From NCBI GenBank assembly GCA_003169195.1, contig PMQB01000208.1, positions 15,554-61,730 of the forward strand: a stretch of 46,177 bases of DNA, read 5' to 3'. A model generated the notes under the pieces. That model did not search any database. It saw only the letters and a program-made list of their open reading frames with translations, and was not told where the DNA came from. Below, piece by piece: positions 5,198-43,905 of the stretch. How positions within the stretch are numbered: the stretch's first letter is position 1; each line of letters begins with the position of its first letter. The position numbers were made by a program, and so were the translations under genes. This stretch comes from Bryobacterales bacterium. Its GTDB lineage: Bacteria; Acidobacteriota; Terriglobia; Bryobacterales; Bryobacteraceae.

Positions 5198-7633
5198 TTG
5201 AACACTCCCAAGGTCCTCTCGAAAACAGGAGCAACATTTCTGCTCCTATTTTTATTTCCGATCCAAACACCGGCCCAAACCGATTACCCGATTCAGCCTG
5301 TCCCTTTCAATCAGGTTCACGTCACCGATCAATTCTGGGCCCCCAAAATAGAAACCAATCGCCGCGTCAGTATTCCCACCGCCTTCGATCAATGTGAGCG
5401 CACTGGCCGTATCGAGAATTTCGTCCGGGCCGCCAAAGCCATTCGCGGCGAAACGCTCACCGACAAACACGCGCCAGGCTTTCCCTTCGACGACACCGAC
5501 CCGTACAAAGTAATCGAGGGCGCCTCCTACACTTTGAGCGTCACTCCGGATCCAAAACTCCAAGCCTATGTCGATAGCCTGATCGACAAGATCGCCGAGG
5601 CGCAAGAACCCGATGGCTATCTCTACACCACCCGCTCCATTGATCCTCAACACCCGCATGAGTGGGCAGGCACCGCACGCTGGCAGAACGAAGAAGTCCT
5701 CAGTCACGAACTCTATAACCTAGGCCATCTTTACGAAGCCGCCACCGCGAATTATCAAGCCACCGGCGATCGCAAACTCCTCGACGTCGCCCTCCGCAGT
5801 GCCGACCTCTTAGTCGCCACCTTCGGCCCAGGCAAAAAGAAAATCTATCCCGGCCATCAAATCGTTGAGATGGGTTTGGTCAAACTCTATCGCGTCACCG
5901 GCCGCCAGCAATATCTGGATCTAGCCAAGTTCCTGCTCGACAGTCGCGGCCCAGGCGGCAACAGCTACAACCAGGCAGACATTCTCGTCATAGATCAAAC
6001 CGAAGCCGAAGGTCACGCCGTTCGGGCCACCTATATGTATTCCGGCATGGCCGACGTCGCCGCGCTCACCGGTGACACCTCCTATCTCAAAGCCATCGAT
6101 CAGATCTGGCAAAACGTTGTCGATAAGAAACTCTATATAACTGGCGGCATCGGCGCGCTCGGCGAAGGTGAAGCGTTCGGCGCAAATTATCAGTTGCCCA
6201 ACATGACCGCCTACAACGAAACCTGCGCCGCCGTCGGCAACGATTTCTGGAATCAGCGCCTTTTCCTCCTGCACGGCGACGCTAAATACGTGGACGTCTT
6301 CGAGCGCACCCTCTACAACGGCCTGATCTCCGGCGTCTCACTCGATGGCAAAACTTATTTCTATCCGAATCCGCTCGAATCGAACGGCCAGCATCACCGC
6401 AGCCCTTGGTTCGGAGTCGCCTGTTGTCCTGGTAACATCACTCGCTTCATGCCTTCCATTCCGGGCTATATCTATGCGCAACGGGCTGACTCACTCTATG
6501 TCAATCTCTACATGAGCAACACAGCCGAGATCACCATGGCGTCCGGCCGGAAGATCAACATCGCGCAAGAAACTCGCTATCCCTGGAACGGCAATATTAA
6601 AATCACGATCAACCCCTCAGCACCCGCTAATTTCTCCCTCAAGGTCCGCATACCCGGCTGGGCGCGTGGCGAAGCCGTTCCTGGAGATCTCTATAAGTTC
6701 TCCGATCAATCTCTAACTCCCGCAGTTCACCTCCAAGTAAATGGCCAAGATCAATCAACCGCCTTAGATCACGGTTACGCCACCATCACGCGTATTTGGC
6801 ATAAAGGAGACACCGTCACTCTCACCCTCCCCATGCCCGTCCACCGCGTCATCGCCAACGAAAAGGTGGAAGCCGATCGCGACAGAGTGGCTTTGCAGCG
6901 CGGCCCCATCGTCTATTGCGCCGAGTGGGCCGATAGTCCCGACAAGCACGTGCGCAATCTCGTACTCGAGCCGCAGCAAACATTCGCTGCCGAATTCGAC
7001 GCCAACAAACTCAACGGCATCGAAGTGCTCAAAGGCAAAGCACTCGCCTATCGCTTCGACGCGCATCATCAACTACAGCACTCTGAGCAACCCTTTACAG
7101 CCATTCCCTATTACGCCTGGGCCAACCGCGGCCCCGGTCAAATGGAAGTCTGGATCGCTTCGAGGGCCGCGCTAGCACATCCCACGCCCTTCCCTACTCT
7201 CGCCACCATCAGTAAAGTCACGTCATCCGGCCCCACCATGGCCGAAAACGGCGCGCGCGATCCTCATCTTGTGGCCGATCAAGAAGAGCCAAACTCTTCC
7301 GCCGATCGCAGTTCCTCTTATAACTGGCTGCCCAAACGCGGCTCGCAAGAGTGGATTCAATACGATTTTCCGCAAGCCACCCAAATCTCAACCAGCGCTG
7401 TCTATTGGCAGATCACTCCAGACAGACGCGATATCAGCCTCCCCGCCAGATGGCAGCTCCTTTATCGTGACGGCAACGATTGGAAACCGGTCGCTGCGCA
7501 AGGCCCGTATCCAATCGAAAAAGACAAGTACAACCAAGTCACATTCAAACCCGTAAAAACACAGGCCCTTCGCCTGGTCATCGAAATGCAACCCGAATCG
7601 TCCGCAGGAATTCAGGAATGGCGGGTCCAATAA
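5198..7633 (+). CDS. GH127 family glycosidase (beta-L-arabinofuranosidase-like) with C-terminal discoidin-like domain
   Basis: Secreted glycoside hydrolase of family GH127. The TTG start gives a hydrophobic signal peptide (about 1-27). The (alpha/alpha)6 barrel occupies about 30-430, followed by beta-sandwich domains. The family's metal-site residues are visible: Glu341 and Cys343 in the ETC motif, and Cys409-Cys410 in GVACCPGN; in characterised members one cysteine is the nucleophile. Residues about 680-811 form an additional F5/8 (discoidin)-like beta sandwich likely to bind carbohydrate. The expected substrate is arabinose-containing plant polysaccharide or glycoprotein, but GH127 also includes other activities. 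It sits one base downstream of the aldo/keto reductase. Confidence 0.9.
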   Translation: MNTPKVLSKTGATFLLLFLFPIQTPAQTDYPIQPVPFNQVHVTDQFWAPKIETNRRVSIPTAFDQCERTGRIENFVRAAKAIRGETLTDKHAPGFPFDDTDPYKVIEGASYTLSVTPDPKLQAYVDSLIDKIAEAQEPDGYLYTTRSIDPQHPHEWAGTARWQNEEVLSHELYNLGHLYEAATANYQATGDRKLLDVALRSADLLVATFGPGKKKIYPGHQIVEMGLVKLYRVTGRQQYLDLAKFLLDSRGPGGNSYNQADILVIDQTEAEGHAVRATYMYSGMADVAALTGDTSYLKAIDQIWQNVVDKKLYITGGIGALGEGEAFGANYQLPNMTAYNETCAAVGNDFWNQRLFLLHGDAKYVDVFERTLYNGLISGVSLDGKTYFYPNPLESNGQHHRSPWFGVACCPGNITRFMPSIPGYIYAQRADSLYVNLYMSNTAEITMASGRKINIAQETRYPWNGNIKITINPSAPANFSLKVRIPGWARGEAVPGDLYKFSDQSLTPAVHLQVNGQDQSTALDHGYATITRIWHKGDTVTLTLPMPVHRVIANEKVEADRDRVALQRGPIVYCAEWADSPDKHVRNLVLEPQQTFAAEFDANKLNGIEVLKGKALAYRFDAHHQLQHSEQPFTAIPYYAWANRGPGQMEVWIASRAALAHPTPFPTLATISKVTSSGPTMAENGARDPHLVADQEEPNSSADRSSSYNWLPKRGSQEWIQYDFPQATQISTSAVYWQITPDRRDISLPARWQLLYRDGNDWKPVAAQGPYPIEKDKYNQVTFKPVKTQALRLVIEMQPESSAGIQEWRVQ

Positions 7634-22091: not shown

Positions 22092-22134
22092 GGGCGCGTA
22101 GCTCAGTTGGTTAGAGCGCCTGCTTCACACGCAG
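22092..22134 (+). tRNA. tRNA-Val(CAC), 5' half only, interrupted at the prophage attachment site
   Basis: GGGCGCG acceptor strand, TA, D-stem GCTC/GAGC (22101-22104, 22114-22117) with AGTTGGTTA loop, and anticodon stem CCTGC (22119-22123). The loop TTCACAC contains anticodon CAC at 22126-22128. The 3' side of the stem reads GCAG and then departs from tRNA sequence (T at 22135 where G is needed). No variable loop, T-arm or 3' acceptor strand follows within the next 170 bases. The remaining half must lie at the other prophage end, outside the window, or be lost. Confidence 0.85.
22124..22134 (+). other. Probable attachment-site core (attL) in the tRNA anticodon loop and stem
   Basis: Identity to tRNA-Val stops after TTCACACGCAG; AT-rich phage-like sequence and the integrase gene follow. 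Tyrosine integrases commonly cross over in anticodon loops. The exact core can be set only by comparison with the other prophage end. Confidence 0.6.
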
Positions 22135-22304: not shown

Positions 22305-23534
22305 TCACTTTTTGTTGTTTGTTCCCACTGGGCTTAACACTGTTTTCTGGCCCTTCGTGAACAACTGCTGGACAGCTTTCTTGCGACTGGATTCCTTACC
22401 TTGCATGTACACACCACGGGTCACATCAGGGTTGCTATGACCCGCCTGGAGTTGAATGCTTTTATCCGAGGCACCATCGTCGTGTAGTTCAGTGATGACG
22501 CCACGCCGGAAAGTCGCAAACGTCACGTTGCCGACTCCAGCGGCGGTAGCTGCCGGTTTTAAGACACGCTTCAGCCAGTTCGCGGCGTTTATTGGTGTGC
22601 CCTTTCGTGAAGCGAAAATAAAGTCATCGATGTCCGCGCGTTCATTCCACTCTTTCCACGCCGCAAGTTCTGTAGCAATCTCTTCGGGCAACCACAGCTC
22701 TCGGTTCCCCGCTTGAGTCTTCACTTTCCCTTCCTTGTTGTGTCGGTTAACTTTGGAATCTATTCTCATCTTGAGACCAGCGAAATCGTTCCATCTGATC
22801 GCAAACAGTTCCCCCCGCCGCGCTCCGCCAAAATATAAGAGATTGGCTATCAGCTTGTCACGGCGAGTTGGAAGTCGTTCGATAGTTCGAAGCGCCTCAT
22901 CAAGTTCTGTTGCGACTCTTTTAACAGGCCGACAGTCTGGCAGCTTGATGTCTACAGCCGGGTTTGTGGTGATGACTCCGGTGCCATGAGCCAGCCGAAA
23001 AATAGAACTTGTGTGAATTCGGCAGTGTTGCACCACGGTTTTTGAATAGCCGCTTGCTAGCTTTTTGTAGAAGCTTTTAATCTCTTTGTCGGTCACGTCG
23101 CGGAGCAAACGATCCCCAAACTCTGGGTACAATTTGGTCTCAAAGTAGTAGGTCTCATTGTGGTGCCTCGTGTCCTCGTTCCAGTCAACTCGGTGTTTGG
23201 GGAGCCAAATGGTCTCACAGTACTGTTTGAATGTGAGGGTCTTCGCCGGAACCGTTGTTAGCACTGGTGTTGTTGAAGGGCTTGAGTGCATGATGGAATC
23301 ACAAATTGTGCGCCACAATTCTTTAGCAGCGGTCGGCGACTTGAGCCCTTCACCATGTTTCACCACCGGCCCAAGATCGTGCTGACCTCCGTGAGCCTTG
23401 TAGCGGCCACCCGGTTTACTTGGATCGGCCTTGTACTCCTGCCATTTAGCTATCCATCGCAACCCATCCGCAGTTTTTTGTTTGGTGACCCAGCCGTGGC
23501 CGATTGGTCCCAGTCCCATTGATTTTCTAGGCAT
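22305..23534 (-). CDS. int: Prophage tyrosine recombinase (integrase)
   Basis: Site-specific recombinase for integration and excision, 409 residues. An N-terminal arm-binding-like region (AKWQEYKADPSKPGGRYKAH) and a SAM-like core-binding domain (about 100-190) precede the catalytic domain. Arg239 in GGARRGEL, Lys272, Arg343 in TFRRGVIT, His366 in AGHSNPD and the nucleophile Tyr376 in RGVYMQG are visible. The usual box II His (HxxR) aligns with Ala340. Its 3' end points to the attachment site 170 bases away. The start codon is inside a 9-bp inverted repeat, suggesting autoregulation. Confidence 0.95.
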   Translation of the reverse strand: MPRKSMGLGPIGHGWVTKQKTADGLRWIAKWQEYKADPSKPGGRYKAHGGQHDLGPVVKHGEGLKSPTAAKELWRTICDSIMHSSPSTTPVLTTVPAKTLTFKQYCETIWLPKHRVDWNEDTRHHNETYYFETKLYPEFGDRLLRDVTDKEIKSFYKKLASGYSKTVVQHCRIHTSSIFRLAHGTGVITTNPAVDIKLPDCRPVKRVATELDEALRTIERLPTRRDKLIANLLYFGGARRGELFAIRWNDFAGLKMRIDSKVNRHNKEGKVKTQAGNRELWLPEEIATELAAWKEWNERADIDDFIFASRKGTPINAANWLKRVLKPAATAAGVGNVTFATFRRGVITELHDDGASDKSIQLQAGHSNPDVTRGVYMQGKESSRKKAVQQLFTKGQKTVLSPVGTNNKK

Positions 23535-23555
23535 GTATGCAGGGTAGCATACATG
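23532..23555. promoter_or_regulatory. 9-bp inverted repeat overlapping the integrase start
   Basis: CATGTATGC, a 6-base spacer AGGGTA, then GCATACATG. The int ATG (complement of 23532-23534) lies at the edge of one arm. On the coding strand the other arm contains TATGCT, a plausible -10. This is a good candidate operator for int control, possibly bound by the adjacent HTH protein. Confidence 0.5.
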
Positions 23556-23557
23556 AT

Positions 23558-23995
23558 CTACTGCGTGTCGTGGGAACTTTGATATTTCATTTTCAGTGTG
23601 GTGTGACGCGCTGCCCTCATGAAATCGTGGAGTTCTGTCTCAACAAACATTGGAGCGGAGTCGGGGCCACCGGGACGATAGTGAGGAATGATTGGTTCAG
23701 CGCGGCTGGTGTGGTCGTAGACCCATTGAGGCTTCTTCCCCAGCACCTGCGCAGCCCTTGCGACATCGACATAGTCGCTTTTGAACTCTTCTCGGCCACC
23801 CACCCACGGCACCTTTTTGGGTCTCCCCTTTGGCTTCTTCTTTTTTACGGCCCCCGCCAATCCCACATCCCTCTCCCAATCCGCCCGCTCCTCGTCCGTG
23901 AGCTTCGGCAATTTTTCAAGCGCCGCGATCACTCCATCAAGTCCGCTCAGCAGCGCGGCGCACTCACCCTGGATACTGATTGGTTGTGTAGCCAT
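23558..23995 (-). CDS. Excisionase-like HTH DNA-binding protein
   Basis: A 145-residue protein next to int. The C-terminal part (about 72-125) resembles a MerR/excisionase-type winged helix: SDYVDVARAAQVLGKKPQWV is the helix-turn-helix and PIIPHYRPGGPDSAPMF the wing. A basic AT-hook-like stretch KKKKPKGRPKK precedes it, and the N-terminus is a short acidic helix region. The position suggests a recombination directionality factor or int regulator. No experimental family assignment is possible from reading. Confidence 0.65.
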   Translation of the reverse strand: MATQPISIQGECAALLSGLDGVIAALEKLPKLTDEERADWERDVGLAGAVKKKKPKGRPKKVPWVGGREEFKSDYVDVARAAQVLGKKPQWVYDHTSRAEPIIPHYRPGGPDSAPMFVETELHDFMRAARHTTLKMKYQSSHDTQ

Positions 23996-24042
23996 ACCGA
24001 TCCAGTGCCCGCCGCCCCAGCAAACTCTTATGCGGATTTTTA

Positions 24043-24263
24043 CGGGGTGTTGGAGCTAGTCGCTTACTACGCGACTAGCTAGTGACCCAATGGGTCACTA
24101 GCTCAATCGCATGGAGAGCAACCGGGGTGTTGGGCTAGTTGCACACTGTGCGACTAGCTAGTGCACCAGTGGTGCACTAGCTGGTGCACTAGCTCTCTCG
24201 CATGCCGACCCACCGGTTGACGCGCCGGGCGAATGGAGCTAGTCACACAGTGTGTTACTAGCT
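24043..24263. repeat. Tandem array of CTAG-rich palindromes
   Basis: Two and a half degenerate units of about 80 bases, each starting CGGGGTGTTGG. Palindromes: 24054-24063/24071-24080 (10 bp); 24077-24089/24091-24103 (13 bp perfect, 1-base centre); 24134-24144/24148-24158 (11 bp, one G-T pair); 24156-24168/24170-24182 (13 bp perfect, 1-base centre); 24237-24263 (12 paired positions with one mismatch). The outer arm AGCTAGT is shared while the inner stems differ yet still pair. CTAG occurs 11 times in 206 bases. Confidence 0.85.
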
Positions 24264-24296
24264 TTTCGCTCGCGAGCGGGCGTCCAGGCCAGGGGT

Positions 24297-24333
24297 GGAG
24301 GAGTTTTTACGCCTCGGGTGTAAAAACTCCTCC
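24297..24333. repeat. 14-bp perfect inverted repeat (long hairpin)
   Basis: GGAGGAGTTTTTAC and its exact complement flank a 9-base loop that can pair three more positions. The T5/A5 tract is inside the stem, so this is not a standard terminator. Confidence 0.7.
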
Positions 24334-24361
24334 GTCTGCAAATCTACCAGCGCACAAAAAT

Positions 24362-24397
24362 GAAAAGCCCGCACCCCTTGTGGGAGAAGGTGCGGGC
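24362..24397 (-). terminator. Rho-independent terminator after the antitoxin gene
   Basis: GCCCGCACC (24367-24375) pairs with GGTGCGGGC (24389-24397). On the minus strand the stem is followed by TTTTCATTTTTG. It lies about 43 bases downstream of the antitoxin stop. Confidence 0.8.
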
Positions 24398-24439
24398 CAT
24401 CTGCAAACAATACCGGGCTTGCTTTCTTATTGTAGCCCC

Positions 24440-24823
24440 TTAGAATGTCGCCGTCAGATGATACTTCTTCGCGAGAGGCTCAACGAGCGTATTCACGCCG
24501 TGGCCGGGGTTCGTCTCACGGCGTGTCCTCAATAGTCCATGTGACTCCAGAAGTTCAACGTCGCGGGCCACGGCCTTACGATCTCGTCCGAGTATCTCAG
24601 CGAGACCCGAAACCGAAATGGTCACCTTTTGCTTTCGGAGGGTGTGCAGGAGCCGCCGACGTTCCGCAGCCAGTACAGCGAGCAAATCAGCGGGGTCTGC
24701 AAATGTGATGTTGATCTCGGGCTTTATCGCTTCGCCGCGATCAATCTTCCGGGCACGCTCTGTGGAGCGCTTTACATATTCATCGAGCCCCCCAATCGCA
24801 ACGGTCACTTTCGTCTTTGTCAT
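24440..24823 (-). CDS. TumA-like antitoxin (winged-HTH regulator)
   Basis: A 127-residue protein. The C-terminal half is a winged helix-turn-helix (SGLAEILGRDRKAVARDVELLESHGLL, about 72-98), and the N-terminal half has the ADPADLLAVLAAERRRLLHTL helix seen in HVO_A0114-type antitoxins that accompany DUF6516/TumE toxins. Its ATG overlaps the toxin stop by 4 bases, giving coupled expression. Antitoxins of this type usually bind both toxin and operon promoter. It may stabilise the prophage. The assignment rests on remembered family patterns. Confidence 0.7.
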   Translation of the reverse strand: MTKTKVTVAIGGLDEYVKRSTERARKIDRGEAIKPEINITFADPADLLAVLAAERRRLLHTLRKQKVTISVSGLAEILGRDRKAVARDVELLESHGLLRTRRETNPGHGVNTLVEPLAKKYHLTATF

Positions 24824-25140
24824 ATTTGCTCCTTCCGTAATTTGGCTACCTCAGCATAGAAACGCTTGGCTACCGCTTCATAACTTTCGAATTGCACCGG
24901 TTCTACCGCGCCCATGAAGTGTCGATGGTGGTAATCGTGACTGTTGTCATACCCAAGCACCCTACCGTTGTCCACGCCACAGACTCGGTGATATATGTAG
25001 GCAAGACTATAGTGCACGACTTCACCGCCCGCCGTCCAAACTTCTTCTTTCAATATCGCGCCCTTCGTTGGCCGAGGTAGCACGTACACTTCATCAACTG
25101 TCTTCGTGGGCTTCAACGACGGCTTTGGTGGTCTCGCCAA
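24820..25140 (-). CDS. TumE-like (DUF6516) toxin
   Basis: A 106-residue protein. The central and C-terminal pattern VVHYSLAYIYHRV, VLGYDNSHDYHHRHFMG and PVQFESYEAVAKRFYAEV matches the TumE/DUF6516 toxin family (YDN, HxHH and Pro-x-x-Phe-x-Ser blocks). The start appears to be TTG, directly after a -10-like element, so the transcript may be leaderless. It is encoded immediately before the antitoxin with a 4-base overlap. The target of the toxin is not inferable here. Confidence 0.7.
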   Translation of the reverse strand: MARPPKPSLKPTKTVDEVYVLPRPTKGAILKEEVWTAGGEVVHYSLAYIYHRVCGVDNGRVLGYDNSHDYHHRHFMGAVEPVQFESYEAVAKRFYAEVAKLRKEQI

Positions 25141-26542: not shown

Positions 26543-27360
26543 CCAAGGTTGTGCGTCGAGTCCTGTCCGATCTGAATACCGTAGTATGTTGCATTTGTCG
26601 CACCGTAAATGGCGAGACCATTTATGGCATTGCCGATATCGGTGCCGCCAATGACCATGCGGCCTGATGTGACGACTGATTGCTTGCCGTTGAACGTGGT
26701 GAAGTCAGTCGAGGCAAGATACCCACTCACGGACGCCGTGGCCTTGGTGACCGTGATCGTCGTCGCGGCGAGCAAGGCGGAAGCACCACCTGTGATCGTC
26801 AAAACGGATGACGTGCTCTCTGTGAGTGACGCAGGTGTCGTAGTAGCTACGCTGGTCAATCCAAGATTGCTTCGAGCCGTTGAAGCCGAAGCCACATCAG
26901 ACAAGTTATTTGCCGCGACCAGTACCCCAGAAAGACCGGTGGCACTGATGGTCGGGATATCCGCAGAAACTAACGAACGAAGCGTAGCTGTGCCAGCAGA
27001 TCCATTCGGCGAAGCGAAGACCAAGTTAGCCGCGCCGGTCGGAGCTGGACCGGTGGGGCCTGTGGGGCCTGTGCTGCCTGTGCTGCCTGTGCTGCCTGTG
27101 CTGCCTGTGCCTCCTGTGTTGCCTGTGCTGCCGGTCGGTCCCGTTGGTCCCACAGACCCCGTTGGTCCCACACTGCCAGTGGCTCCCACACTGCCAGTTG
27201 GTCCCACGCTTCCACTGGGGCCGGTCGATCCACTCGGTCCCGTGGGGCCAGCAACCGTGGGAACGCTTCCCGAAATATTAGTGCCGGAAACCTGCCACGT
27301 GACGTTCACGTTTCCGGTCGGCGCGGTGGGTGTGGTGTTGGAGAAATTTGGTAGAGCCAT
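26530..27360 (-). CDS. Collagen-like tail fibre protein (N-terminal part)
   Basis: 276 residues. A short N-terminal segment ([21 protein letters not shown]) leads into a Gly-x-y collagen-like tract (about residues 38-107), then beta-rich repeats ([21 protein letters not shown]) and the shaft motif [15 protein letters not shown], after which the frame stops within three codons. It is probably the receptor-binding side fibre or tail-tip appendage. The stop appears to come from a single-base change in a G run. Read through in the -1 frame it would give a fibre of about 500 residues. Confidence 0.82.
27040..27249 (-). repeat. In-frame 9-bp tandem repeats coding for collagen-like Gly-x-y
   Basis: Repeated GSTGSTGST-type triplets, with TGTGCTGCC-like 9-mers on the plus strand at about 27069-27118 and a second register (CACTGCCAG/TTGGTCCCA) to 27245. 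All units are multiples of 9 bases, so slippage changes fibre length without loss of frame. Confidence 0.8.
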
Positions 27361-42230: not shown

Positions 42231-42962
42231 CTAAAGCGCTTGTGCGACTCTCGCCCTTAACAGGGCGGTCTCAACATCTCGGTTGAGATTCCGTTCTGCA
42301 CAATCACAGTTCGGATCGTCACACTCAGGGTCTGAACAATCGAGGCAGTTACCTGCCTCGCATTCGTCGCACTCACACATACATTCAGAAGTTCGAAGTT
42401 GTGTAGTTATTGAATCGGGTACACCGTTGGGGAAGAGTGAACGGACGGAGCAGGATGACGCTTCGTACGCCGGATAAACGACGCATGACGTATCGTAGAG
42501 AGACGCTTGCTTGATTGTACGTGTCCACTTACCACCCGCTAGCTCAGTCCAGTCGCAATTATCTACCGTCATCGCGAATGAGCTTTGCGATACATCCCCC
42601 CTGTCGATCAGTACGGAAAGATCGCGTGCAGCCTGCGTATCAGGGAGGTCACACTCAAAGCGGAGGCCAATGTTGTCCTCCTTGAGGCGAAGTGTGCCAG
42701 CTTTGGTCCGGCCCAGGACCAAATTCGGGTCGTGATTAATCAATGCCCTCACATCGGGATTGGTCGCGAGGTTTGCTGAGAAGCAGCCGGGGCTCAGTCT
42801 CTCTATGAAACCCCCGAGATCACAGCTATCACTGTTGAAGACTGCCGCGTACCCTTCCAACTTGGTCGGTGCGCCGTCGTCACGCTTTACACGTAGTTCC
42901 TGCCCCGCGAACCTGCGTTCAAGCTTTGATGCATTCTCCCGACCCAATGTTGGTTTTTTCAT
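42231..42962 (-). CDS. HK97-family prohead protease with Cys-rich tail
   Basis: 243 residues from ATG 42962, which follows AGGAG; a TTG start at 42983 would leave that site inside the gene. EGYAAVFNSDSCDLGGFIERLSPGCF opens the protease; His in ALINHDP and Ser in GDVSQSSFAM are the catalytic His and Ser of U35-type proteases. The last quarter departs from the family core: nine cysteines within about 32 residues, spaced by Asp, Glu and Asn (ECMCECDEC through CDDPNCDC), suggesting metal binding. It cleaves the capsid delta domain. Confidence 0.9.
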   Translation of the reverse strand: MKKPTLGRENASKLERRFAGQELRVKRDDGAPTKLEGYAAVFNSDSCDLGGFIERLSPGCFSANLATNPDVRALINHDPNLVLGRTKAGTLRLKEDNIGLRFECDLPDTQAARDLSVLIDRGDVSQSSFAMTVDNCDWTELAGGKWTRTIKQASLYDTSCVVYPAYEASSCSVRSLFPNGVPDSITTQLRTSECMCECDECEAGNCLDCSDPECDDPNCDCAERNLNRDVETALLRARVAQAL

Positions 42963-43905
42963 TCGTAATGTCTCCTGATGCAATTAACTCGGCTTCTAAG
43001 ATCGCCCAGGCTTTCTTCATGCGATGGTTCTCCTTTAAACGAAATGAATGCTTGACGTTTAAGGCCAACCCTTCTTCCGAAGTACGAAAGTTCTTACCAG
43101 CCGCCTGCGTGACAGCTTTTGCTGCCGGATCTTTATACCGCTCTAATAAGGCTTGGGAAGCTCGAATATGTGATTCCTTTGATGACCAGTAGGCCGACTG
43201 GCTAGCCGCGTGTGACTCTCGGAATCCTGGGACCGTCCACATTGCACGGCTTGTTTGCCTAAGCCGGTCACGTTCCGCTTGTTTCTCAAACCGTTTTCTC
43301 ATCCTCTCGGCCTGCCTGTCCCGCTCAGTTTGATCTTCATAGCGCCTAACACCGGCTTCAGATTGTTTTCGTAAGGCTTCAGGCGTAAAGCAGACCTTTC
43401 TCAAAAGTTCAACCCGTCGCTCCCTATTCGCTGGGTCAGCCCAATAAATAGAGCGCACCGACTCATGCTTCAGTCGTTCCGTAGGAGACCACGGTTTACC
43501 TTTCCTCGCTGCTGACAACGTTGCTGCCCCTTCCGGTGTGGCCGCATAACTTCGACGTGCTTGGCGAAGTTTCTCCGCTGCCTCAGGTGAAGCTCTTACT
43601 CCTTCGCCGCCGTAAGTGAGGTTATACCCGAATTCGGGTTCGGTTGATCGATACTCGGCTATTTCGGCGATCTCAAGCGCCAACAATTCTTCTTTTGAAT
43701 TGGCTTCATGGATCTCTCGCCTTGTGAATGAATCAGCGCCGTATTTACGAATGGCACAGTGTAAAGAGGTTTTAGCGCCTCGCCTCGCCTCTCCAAGATG
43801 CCCGGTCCATCGAGCACTCAGAGTCTGCGTGGTGAGTCCGACGTAAACCTTCCCGTTCACCGTATTCGTAATGAGATAAATGACGCCGTATGGTTTTGCT
43901 TCCAC
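42919..43905 (-). CDS. GIY-YIG homing endonuclease
   Basis: 328 residues. GVIYLITNTVNGKVYVGLT carries the paired Tyr motifs of the GIY-YIG nuclease, then RWTGHLGEARRGA with the catalytic Arg and NLTYGGEG, the usual domain end. Downstream are short NUMOD-like DNA-binding repeats (TPEGAATLSAARKGKPWS and others) and a basic helical tail. It stands between portal and protease, and its last 44 bases overlap the start of the protease gene, including that gene's ribosome-binding site. The start is GTG with no clear ribosome site. It is a selfish insertion. Confidence 0.9.
   Translation of the reverse strand: MEAKPYGVIYLITNTVNGKVYVGLTTQTLSARWTGHLGEARRGAKTSLHCAIRKYGADSFTRREIHEANSKEELLALEIAEIAEYRSTEPEFGYNLTYGGEGVRASPEAAEKLRQARRSYAATPEGAATLSAARKGKPWSPTERLKHESVRSIYWADPANRERRVELLRKVCFTPEALRKQSEAGVRRYEDQTERDRQAERMRKRFEKQAERDRLRQTSRAMWTVPGFRESHAASQSAYWSSKESHIRASQALLERYKDPAAKAVTQAAGKNFRTSEEGLALNVKHSFRLKENHRMKKAWAILEAELIASGDITNEKTNIGSGECIKA

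Follow-up and report, generated by a model that had tools for sequence, protein, structure and literature searches.

A palindrome array with fixed ends and matched, variable middles upstream of the xis-int genes of a Bryobacterales prophage

A prophage of a Bryobacterales bacterium carries a real, non-random array of CTAG-bounded palindromes upstream of its xis-like and integrase genes. Five 27-bp dyads, each composed of two 13-base arms around a single central base (13+1+13), a shortened sixth copy and a separate palindrome with 18-base arms fill positions 24054-24333 of the window, the 46,177-nt stretch of contig PMQB01000208.1 analyzed here. The outer ends of the dyads are fixed, and their middles vary yet match within each dyad. 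The array lies at a single place in its genome, and the word of one dyad recurs in one distant virus. We infer that the array may be a cis-acting control region of the prophage xis-int operon, a tentative reading that we place somewhat below an even chance. It would regulate xis-int by binding a factor, and the active molecule could be DNA or RNA.

Setting and architecture of the array

The prophage is tailed, with genes for portal, head protease, capsid and tail proteins, and adjoins a superoxide dismutase gene; the window ends at the end of the contig. The presumed attL is the 5' part of a tRNA gene (22092-22134, + strand) that is cut in the anticodon arm. It is read as tRNA-Val, anticodon CAC, with the prophage beginning there near 22134, and ARAGORN found no whole tRNA in the window. 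A tyrosine recombinase of the phage integrase type is encoded at 22305-23534 (- strand), directly downstream of a gene for a putative excisionase-like small HTH protein of 145 aa (23558-23995, - strand). The xis label is used because this protein matches, at 39% over 57 aa, a protein of another genome (G001) that itself matches Pfam HTH_17 and is encoded beside a related, 43% identical integrase. The Pfam match of the xis-like protein itself is HTH_29 at E 0.03, with none at 0.001.

The array sits between the xis-like start codon and an upstream HTH gene, and 58 nt separate that start codon from the first dyad. The initial annotation had placed the array beside int/xis, and this holds for the integrase and the xis-like gene. 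To the right of the array, a winged-helix HTH gene (24440-24823) is followed by a TumE-type toxin gene; the two overlap (24440-25140) and are likely a toxin-antitoxin pair in the prophage. Three + strand ORFs overlapping the array edges have no Pfam match at E 0.1, and one of them has a PHROG match of just 17 residues (E 0.074). In type III toxin-antitoxin systems, tandem repeats (ToxI) precede a gene for a ToxN-type toxin. The array does not fit this type, as the 145-aa protein downstream has only its weak HTH match and its 39% match to an HTH_17 protein. Elsewhere in the prophage, a homing endonuclease gene (42919-43905, GIY-YIG among its PHROG matches) lies between the portal and head protease genes, and short tandem repeats at 27058-27218 are, by eye, collagen-like GPTG coding sequence in an ORF adjoining the tail gene.

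The array, whose features carry no strand assignment, is organized in three tandem units holding two palindromes, two plus a shortened one, and one. The first unit, R1 (24042-24120), is composed of a leader, CGGGGTGTTGG, the dyads P1 and P2, and a tail with TCGCATG. R2 (24121-24211) has the same leader, followed by P3, P4, the shortened P4b and a tail with TCGCATG. R3 (24222-24285) is a diverged third unit with a single palindrome, P5; it was found by alignment, its limits were set by eye, and its leader is identical to that of R1 at 7 of 11 positions. The degenerate tandem repeat of about 80 bases in the initial annotation was recovered as two 62-nt copies, 74% identical, at an offset of 79.

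P1 (24054-24080) is mismatched once, at pair 11 (T.C), and shares an AGCT with P2 (24077-24103), a perfect 13+1+13 dyad. P3 (24133-24159) has two G.T wobbles on the + strand, at pairs 1 and 8, and likewise shares an AGCT with P4 (24156-24182), which is also perfect. In both abutting doublets the dyad centres are 23 bases apart. P4b, AGCTGGTGCACTAGCT, occupies 24179-24194. P5 (24237-24263) has one C.T mismatch at pair 8, and its last base starts a four-T run on the + strand. The separate palindrome, at 24297-24333, is not of the CTAG type. The five palindromes with the outer arm AGCTAGT (24054-24263) and the two perfect 13-bp stems with a one-base centre, P2 and P4, are thus as first described. 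The accompanying statement that each inner stem is still matched was slightly overstated because of the single mismatches in P1 and P5 and the two wobbles in P3.

This architecture is not expected by chance. The 46-kb window holds six palindromes of score at least 9, and all six fall inside 24054-24333. Shuffling the 46 kb 40 times gave a mean of 0.95 such palindromes (maximum 4), and 1000 shuffles of 24030-24349 gave a mean of 0.007 (maximum 1). CTAG occurs 11 times in the 206 bases of 24056-24261, as the initial annotation had counted; in the 320 bases of 24030-24349, dinucleotide-shuffled 1000 times, the mean was 2.1 (maximum 6). The tetranucleotide, described there as usually rare, is under-represented in the window as a whole (55 found, 86.9 expected).

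Irregularly spaced 27-bp dyads whose outer ends are fixed resemble resolvase subsites. The array could be viewed as a site for recombination, replication or partition (for example subsites of a resolvase type, folded sites like attC, or an origin of replication), and an integrase is encoded nearby. However, the recombinase found is a tyrosine integrase, the array is ~1.9 kb from the presumed attL, and the proteins scanned around it include no replication or partition protein. Integron attC sites are recombined at conserved core sites by an integron integrase; against the model of that enzyme, the nearby integrase scores 21.7 bits (cut-off 265). No positive evidence was found for any of these roles, which had been raised from the sequence at the outset, and we consider them highly improbable.

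Fixed ends, matched middles and folding

The ten half-sites of the five dyads share the consensus AGCTAGT-n-n-C-n-C-A. It is matched in 69 of 70 cases at positions 1-7 (AGCTAGT) and by all ten half-sites at position 13. Eight of the ten follow it at position 10 and eight at position 12; positions 8, 9 and 11 vary freely. Despite this freedom, the left and right halves of the five dyads agree at 27 of 30 inner positions, and among the 120 possible assignments of right to left halves, the true one alone reaches this figure. The covariation score of the five dyads is 0.408, compared to 0.150 in shuffles, and lies above those of all six slid registers. None of 500 shuffles reached that score, and none reached the count of cells altered on both sides. 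The count of pairs altered on both sides (5 of 13) was reached in 7 of the 500 shuffles and that of further pair types in 49; these figures are not probabilities of independent events because the dyads are related by duplication. When a similar dyad from the viral contig L134 is added, the same four measures are reached by 0, 0, 3 and 26 of 500 shuffles.

The comparison of R1 with R2 separates the parts of the dyad. Their outer arms agree at all 23 positions compared (an A absent from P3 is excluded), their inner parts, centres included, at 16 of 26, and their flanks, made up of leader and tail, at 22 of 28. The outer arms differ significantly from the inner parts (p = 0.0008) and from the flanks (p = 0.027), and inner parts and flanks show no significant difference (p = 0.24). 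The arms are therefore held. In the mechanism that we propose, the distal AGCTAGT arms and the innermost A would be fixed, presumably by contact with a dimeric protein or a structure-reading factor, and the middle of the dyad would be free to change while both arms match. The dyads, as DNA operators or as hairpins in DNA or in a transcript, would then gate xis-int transcription and, through it, excision.

The initial annotation took the pair-preserving variation as a sign of selection on a fold. The covariation stands; the need for such selection does not follow, because matched changes can also arise by template switching; the two bases that differ between P2 and P4, swapped in both arms, are a change of this kind. 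One account (PMC8794818) holds that compensatory changes of several bases can arise in this way and that the process can fix pairing in existing stems. Template switching has to be taken seriously as an explanation of the covariation without selection. The array would then be a mutational by-product, a palindrome duplicated in tandem whose changes are copied from arm to arm. Template switching can create matched stems in the first place (PMC8794818), and the array does contain duplication products (P4b and the tandem units). By itself, though, this process does not explain identical outer arms around a changing middle (p = 0.0008) or the presence of the P3 word in a distant virus, and imperfect pairs have been kept in three of the five dyads. 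We regard the by-product reading as unlikely. The fixed ends and matched variable middles make the array a clean test case for selection on a fold versus homogenization by template switching. Both predict matched stems, but only selection on the fold predicts that one-arm changes are harmful and that matched two-arm changes rescue them. The same variation also bears on a plain protein operator, for which symmetric change is unexpected unless template switching homogenizes the arms.

The hairpins may instead act in a transcript, either as the 5' leader of xis-int (- strand) or as a + strand non-coding RNA. Such an RNA might modify RNA polymerase or be bound by a protein that reads the fixed lower stem. 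The pair-preserving changes fit this, and the folding energy of 24040-24340 is far below that of 100 shuffles (z -8.1 on the + strand and -11.4 on the - strand); any palindrome, however, folds well on both strands. Each dyad alone folds as a hairpin, P1-P2 span 50 nt, and the minimum-energy structure of the whole 301 nt pairs some arms otherwise. Four imperfections are of the wobble type (two in P3 and one each in P4b and 24297-24333), and all four are G.U when read on the + strand and A.C when read on the - strand. This lean reaches only p = 0.06, one-sided, and is opposite to the direction of xis-int; the mismatches in P1 and P5 fit neither strand. The P1-P2 and P3-P4 doublets resemble the layout of the HK022 put RNAs (PMC9378689). 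In a consensus scan of 23500-24900, the one promoter-like site (24457-24429, - strand) reads towards the array and would continue through it into xis-int, but 0.8 such sites are expected by chance. Rfam returned four weak matches in 23500-24900, up to E 5 and all below gathering scores, and a known RNA family was rejected on this ground. Taken together, a structured RNA is in our view rather unlikely.

A cluster of insulators or terminators that keeps read-through out of xis-int would also be placed upstream of these genes, as the array is. In Tn916, a terminator, T1, near one end is described as insulating the element (PMC11658703). Look-alike hairpins occur after the tail tube gene of Aeromonas phage LAh10, where TTTT follows, and between two ORFs of a 322-kb viral contig (L130), where TTAT follows. 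Here, however, the consensus scan of 23500-24900 found no terminator-like site (1.4 expected), and an intrinsic terminator was rejected; the only short T run is at P5 on the + strand, and on the - strand, from which xis-int is read, no dyad is followed by one. By analogy with such elements an insulating role can be proposed, and we consider it very unlikely.

For control of xis-int, the position of the array, its fixed ends, its kept pairing and the recurrence of one dyad's word ahead of an ORF in a distant virus all speak in favor. A promoter-like match at chance level, inner parts with no significant difference from the flanks, and the xis-int pair of G001, which is without an array, speak against it. 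A fast-changing hairpin code is quite unlikely, but can be put in definite terms. A regulator would read the fixed lower stem (AGCTAGT), the variable but always matched upper stem would distinguish single hairpins or phages, and a single-stranded or RNA form would control excision.

Occurrence of the array and its dyads elsewhere

The pattern GCTAGT-N13-ACTAGC has five matches in the genome itself (a 7.8-Mb draft, about 90% complete), all of them in the array, and outside it blastn gives only weak matches of 20-24 bases. A dispersed repeat was rejected on these results, and the earlier suggestion of a REPIN-like mobile element was not borne out. Across 299 other genomes, three have one match each, with 0, 1 and 3 of 6 inner pairs matched. 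The doublet pattern was searched for in 399 genomes of the class and found in none of the 398 others. The strict 23-bp doublet is absent from the viral contigs searched. A looser form occurs there once, in a low-complexity, CTAG-rich stretch (L007), and in six stretches of the genome contigs, namely two Spirochaetia tandem hairpins, one Micromonospora repeat and three low-complexity or other repeats. The Micromonospora repeat (L052:2149-2250) has 21-bp CTAG-bounded inverted-repeat units that are, by eye, in frame with coding sequence.

A blastn search with the array found matches of 28-39 bases in 13 phage records and none in plasmids. E-values overstate such matches because a palindrome carries half its length's information. 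When the array DNA was compared to 100 relatives, 10 of them, its own genome included, had matches at E <= 0.1; the other 11 places hold pieces of 18-39 bases, and none of the 11 loci has the array. A model search over 38 loci matched only the window's own (L001). The model searches leave P1 unlisted, presumably because it overlaps P2. At 29 other integrase loci (L022-L050, part of a longer list), there are at most two palindromes of score at least 9 each, versus six in the window. Among the titles and abstract openings listed on palindrome and hairpin arrays of prophages and phages, none describes this array. In the genomes, viral contigs, phage records and plasmids searched, it is thus not found as an array elsewhere.

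The xis-like protein has no relative in the viral contigs or phage records, and the integrase has none in the viral contigs. The nearest related integrase among the matches found is that of G001 (43%). A 49-bp stretch, 96% identical, is common to G001 and the window and is the tRNA site beside the G001 integrase, so the G001 element seems to occupy this same site. A xis-int pair is present in G001, and the 16 kb covered hold no array; its contig starts inside the element. The closest relative of the tail gene (G012, 77%) likewise has no such array in the 18 kb covered, which are without a recognized integrase end, and its genes after the tail gene differ. The initial annotation held that homologous prophages lacking the repeats would count against a folded element. 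G001 is one such case over 16 kb, but a distant virus carries a perfect dyad with the P3 word.

In the viral contigs, AGCTAGT-N13-ACTAGCT occurs in 24 stretches, and the middle is fully matched in three, L134, L145 and L130. L134 and L145, 100% identical over 9463 bp, represent a single virus. Their dyad has the P3 word, TGCACA, and is one base off P3 in arms 2-13; it is the only CTAGT-N13-ACTAG in the L134 record. The dyad ends 47 nt before an ATG taken as the start; the longest ORF starts nearer, at an in-frame TTG at 6980. By hand arithmetic, which treats the two matched dyads as independent and allows for eight half-site words and six bases, the chance of this coincidence is below 1%. The virus has portal, terminase and HNH proteins and a short capsid piece related to those of the prophage, and it encodes an integrase. 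Both sequences are fragments, and no regulatory gene is detectably shared between them, so they do not point to a common binder. For the 128-aa protein encoded downstream of the L134 dyad, no relative was found among 400 (a search run without a positive control) or in the phage records, and further homologous sites could thus not be gathered through it.

The inner word GTTGCACANTGTGCAAC is uninformative by itself. It occurs in 20 viral stretches and is followed by CTAG arms only in L134 and L145; the other 18 are extended by 0-3 matched bases. CTAGT-N4-CANTG-N4-ACTAG occurs in 12 viral stretches and, besides L134/L145, has a matched middle only in L182/L183. In the latter, viral contigs rich in AT, the matched dyad is CTAGTACTACA-A/T-TGTAGTACTAG (L182:6425 and L183:62). 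L134 also contains a perfect 46-bp palindrome (6827-6872), 69 bases from the P3-like dyad. The words GTAAAAATC/AAAAATCTC are found at 24035-24043 (- strand) and 24310-24320 of the window and at 6970 and 7575 of L134. They stand shortly upstream of start codons in the prophage and the L134 virus and are possibly a shared promoter or leader element.

Comparison with known systems

The LAh10 hairpin, AGCTAGTCACCCAATGGGTGACTAGCT, has the same outer arms and 13+1+13 geometry as the array dyads and scores 43.1 bits, equal to P2. It differs in occurring at one place in its record, after the tail tube gene and with a T run. About one such match is expected in the phage collection by a rough hand estimate; LAh10 was set aside as a relative, and its hairpin is most likely a terminator and a chance or convergent match. 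In Spirochaetia bacterium MS499-42, inverted-repeat units of 23 bp bounded by CTAG, CTAGTCGAAGGGGCTTAGACTAG among them, stand in tandem on four contigs (C3, C9, C32 and C34 of G469; L055 and L056 among the loci compared). The abutting inverted repeats and the 23-bp unit from CTAG to CTAG are like those of the array, whereas the MS499-42 units are near-identical to one another, carry another word and have imperfect stems. They score 21.5-25.1 bits, versus 38.7-43.1 for the listed array members, and the two sets are probably independent.

The put RNAs of HK022 are described as about 70 nt long with two stem-loops (PMC9378689). They are transcribed and suppress pausing and termination. Their two adjacent stem-loops in a temperate phage would have a counterpart in the doublets of the array if these fold as paired hairpins, and the array is without a shown sequence match to them. 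REP and REPIN elements are short palindromes with conserved ends, partly paired, that have many copies dispersed in the host genome and an associated RAYT transposase. The array likewise has conserved-end palindromes partly in pairs but, unlike these elements, occupies a single locus.

Phage operator arrays for integration and excision genes are bound by a regulator and have multiple dyads built on one half-site in the control region. The repeated dyads described here, which begin 58 nt upstream of the xis-like start, fit this feature, and the DNA that they occupy may be the corresponding int/xis control region. If the array does control excision, it would be an unusual prophage switch, a DNA or RNA element that changes its sequence while keeping its form. 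It differs from phage operator arrays in that its inner bases vary yet match within each dyad, and in that its 27-bp dyads abut at a 23-bp pitch.
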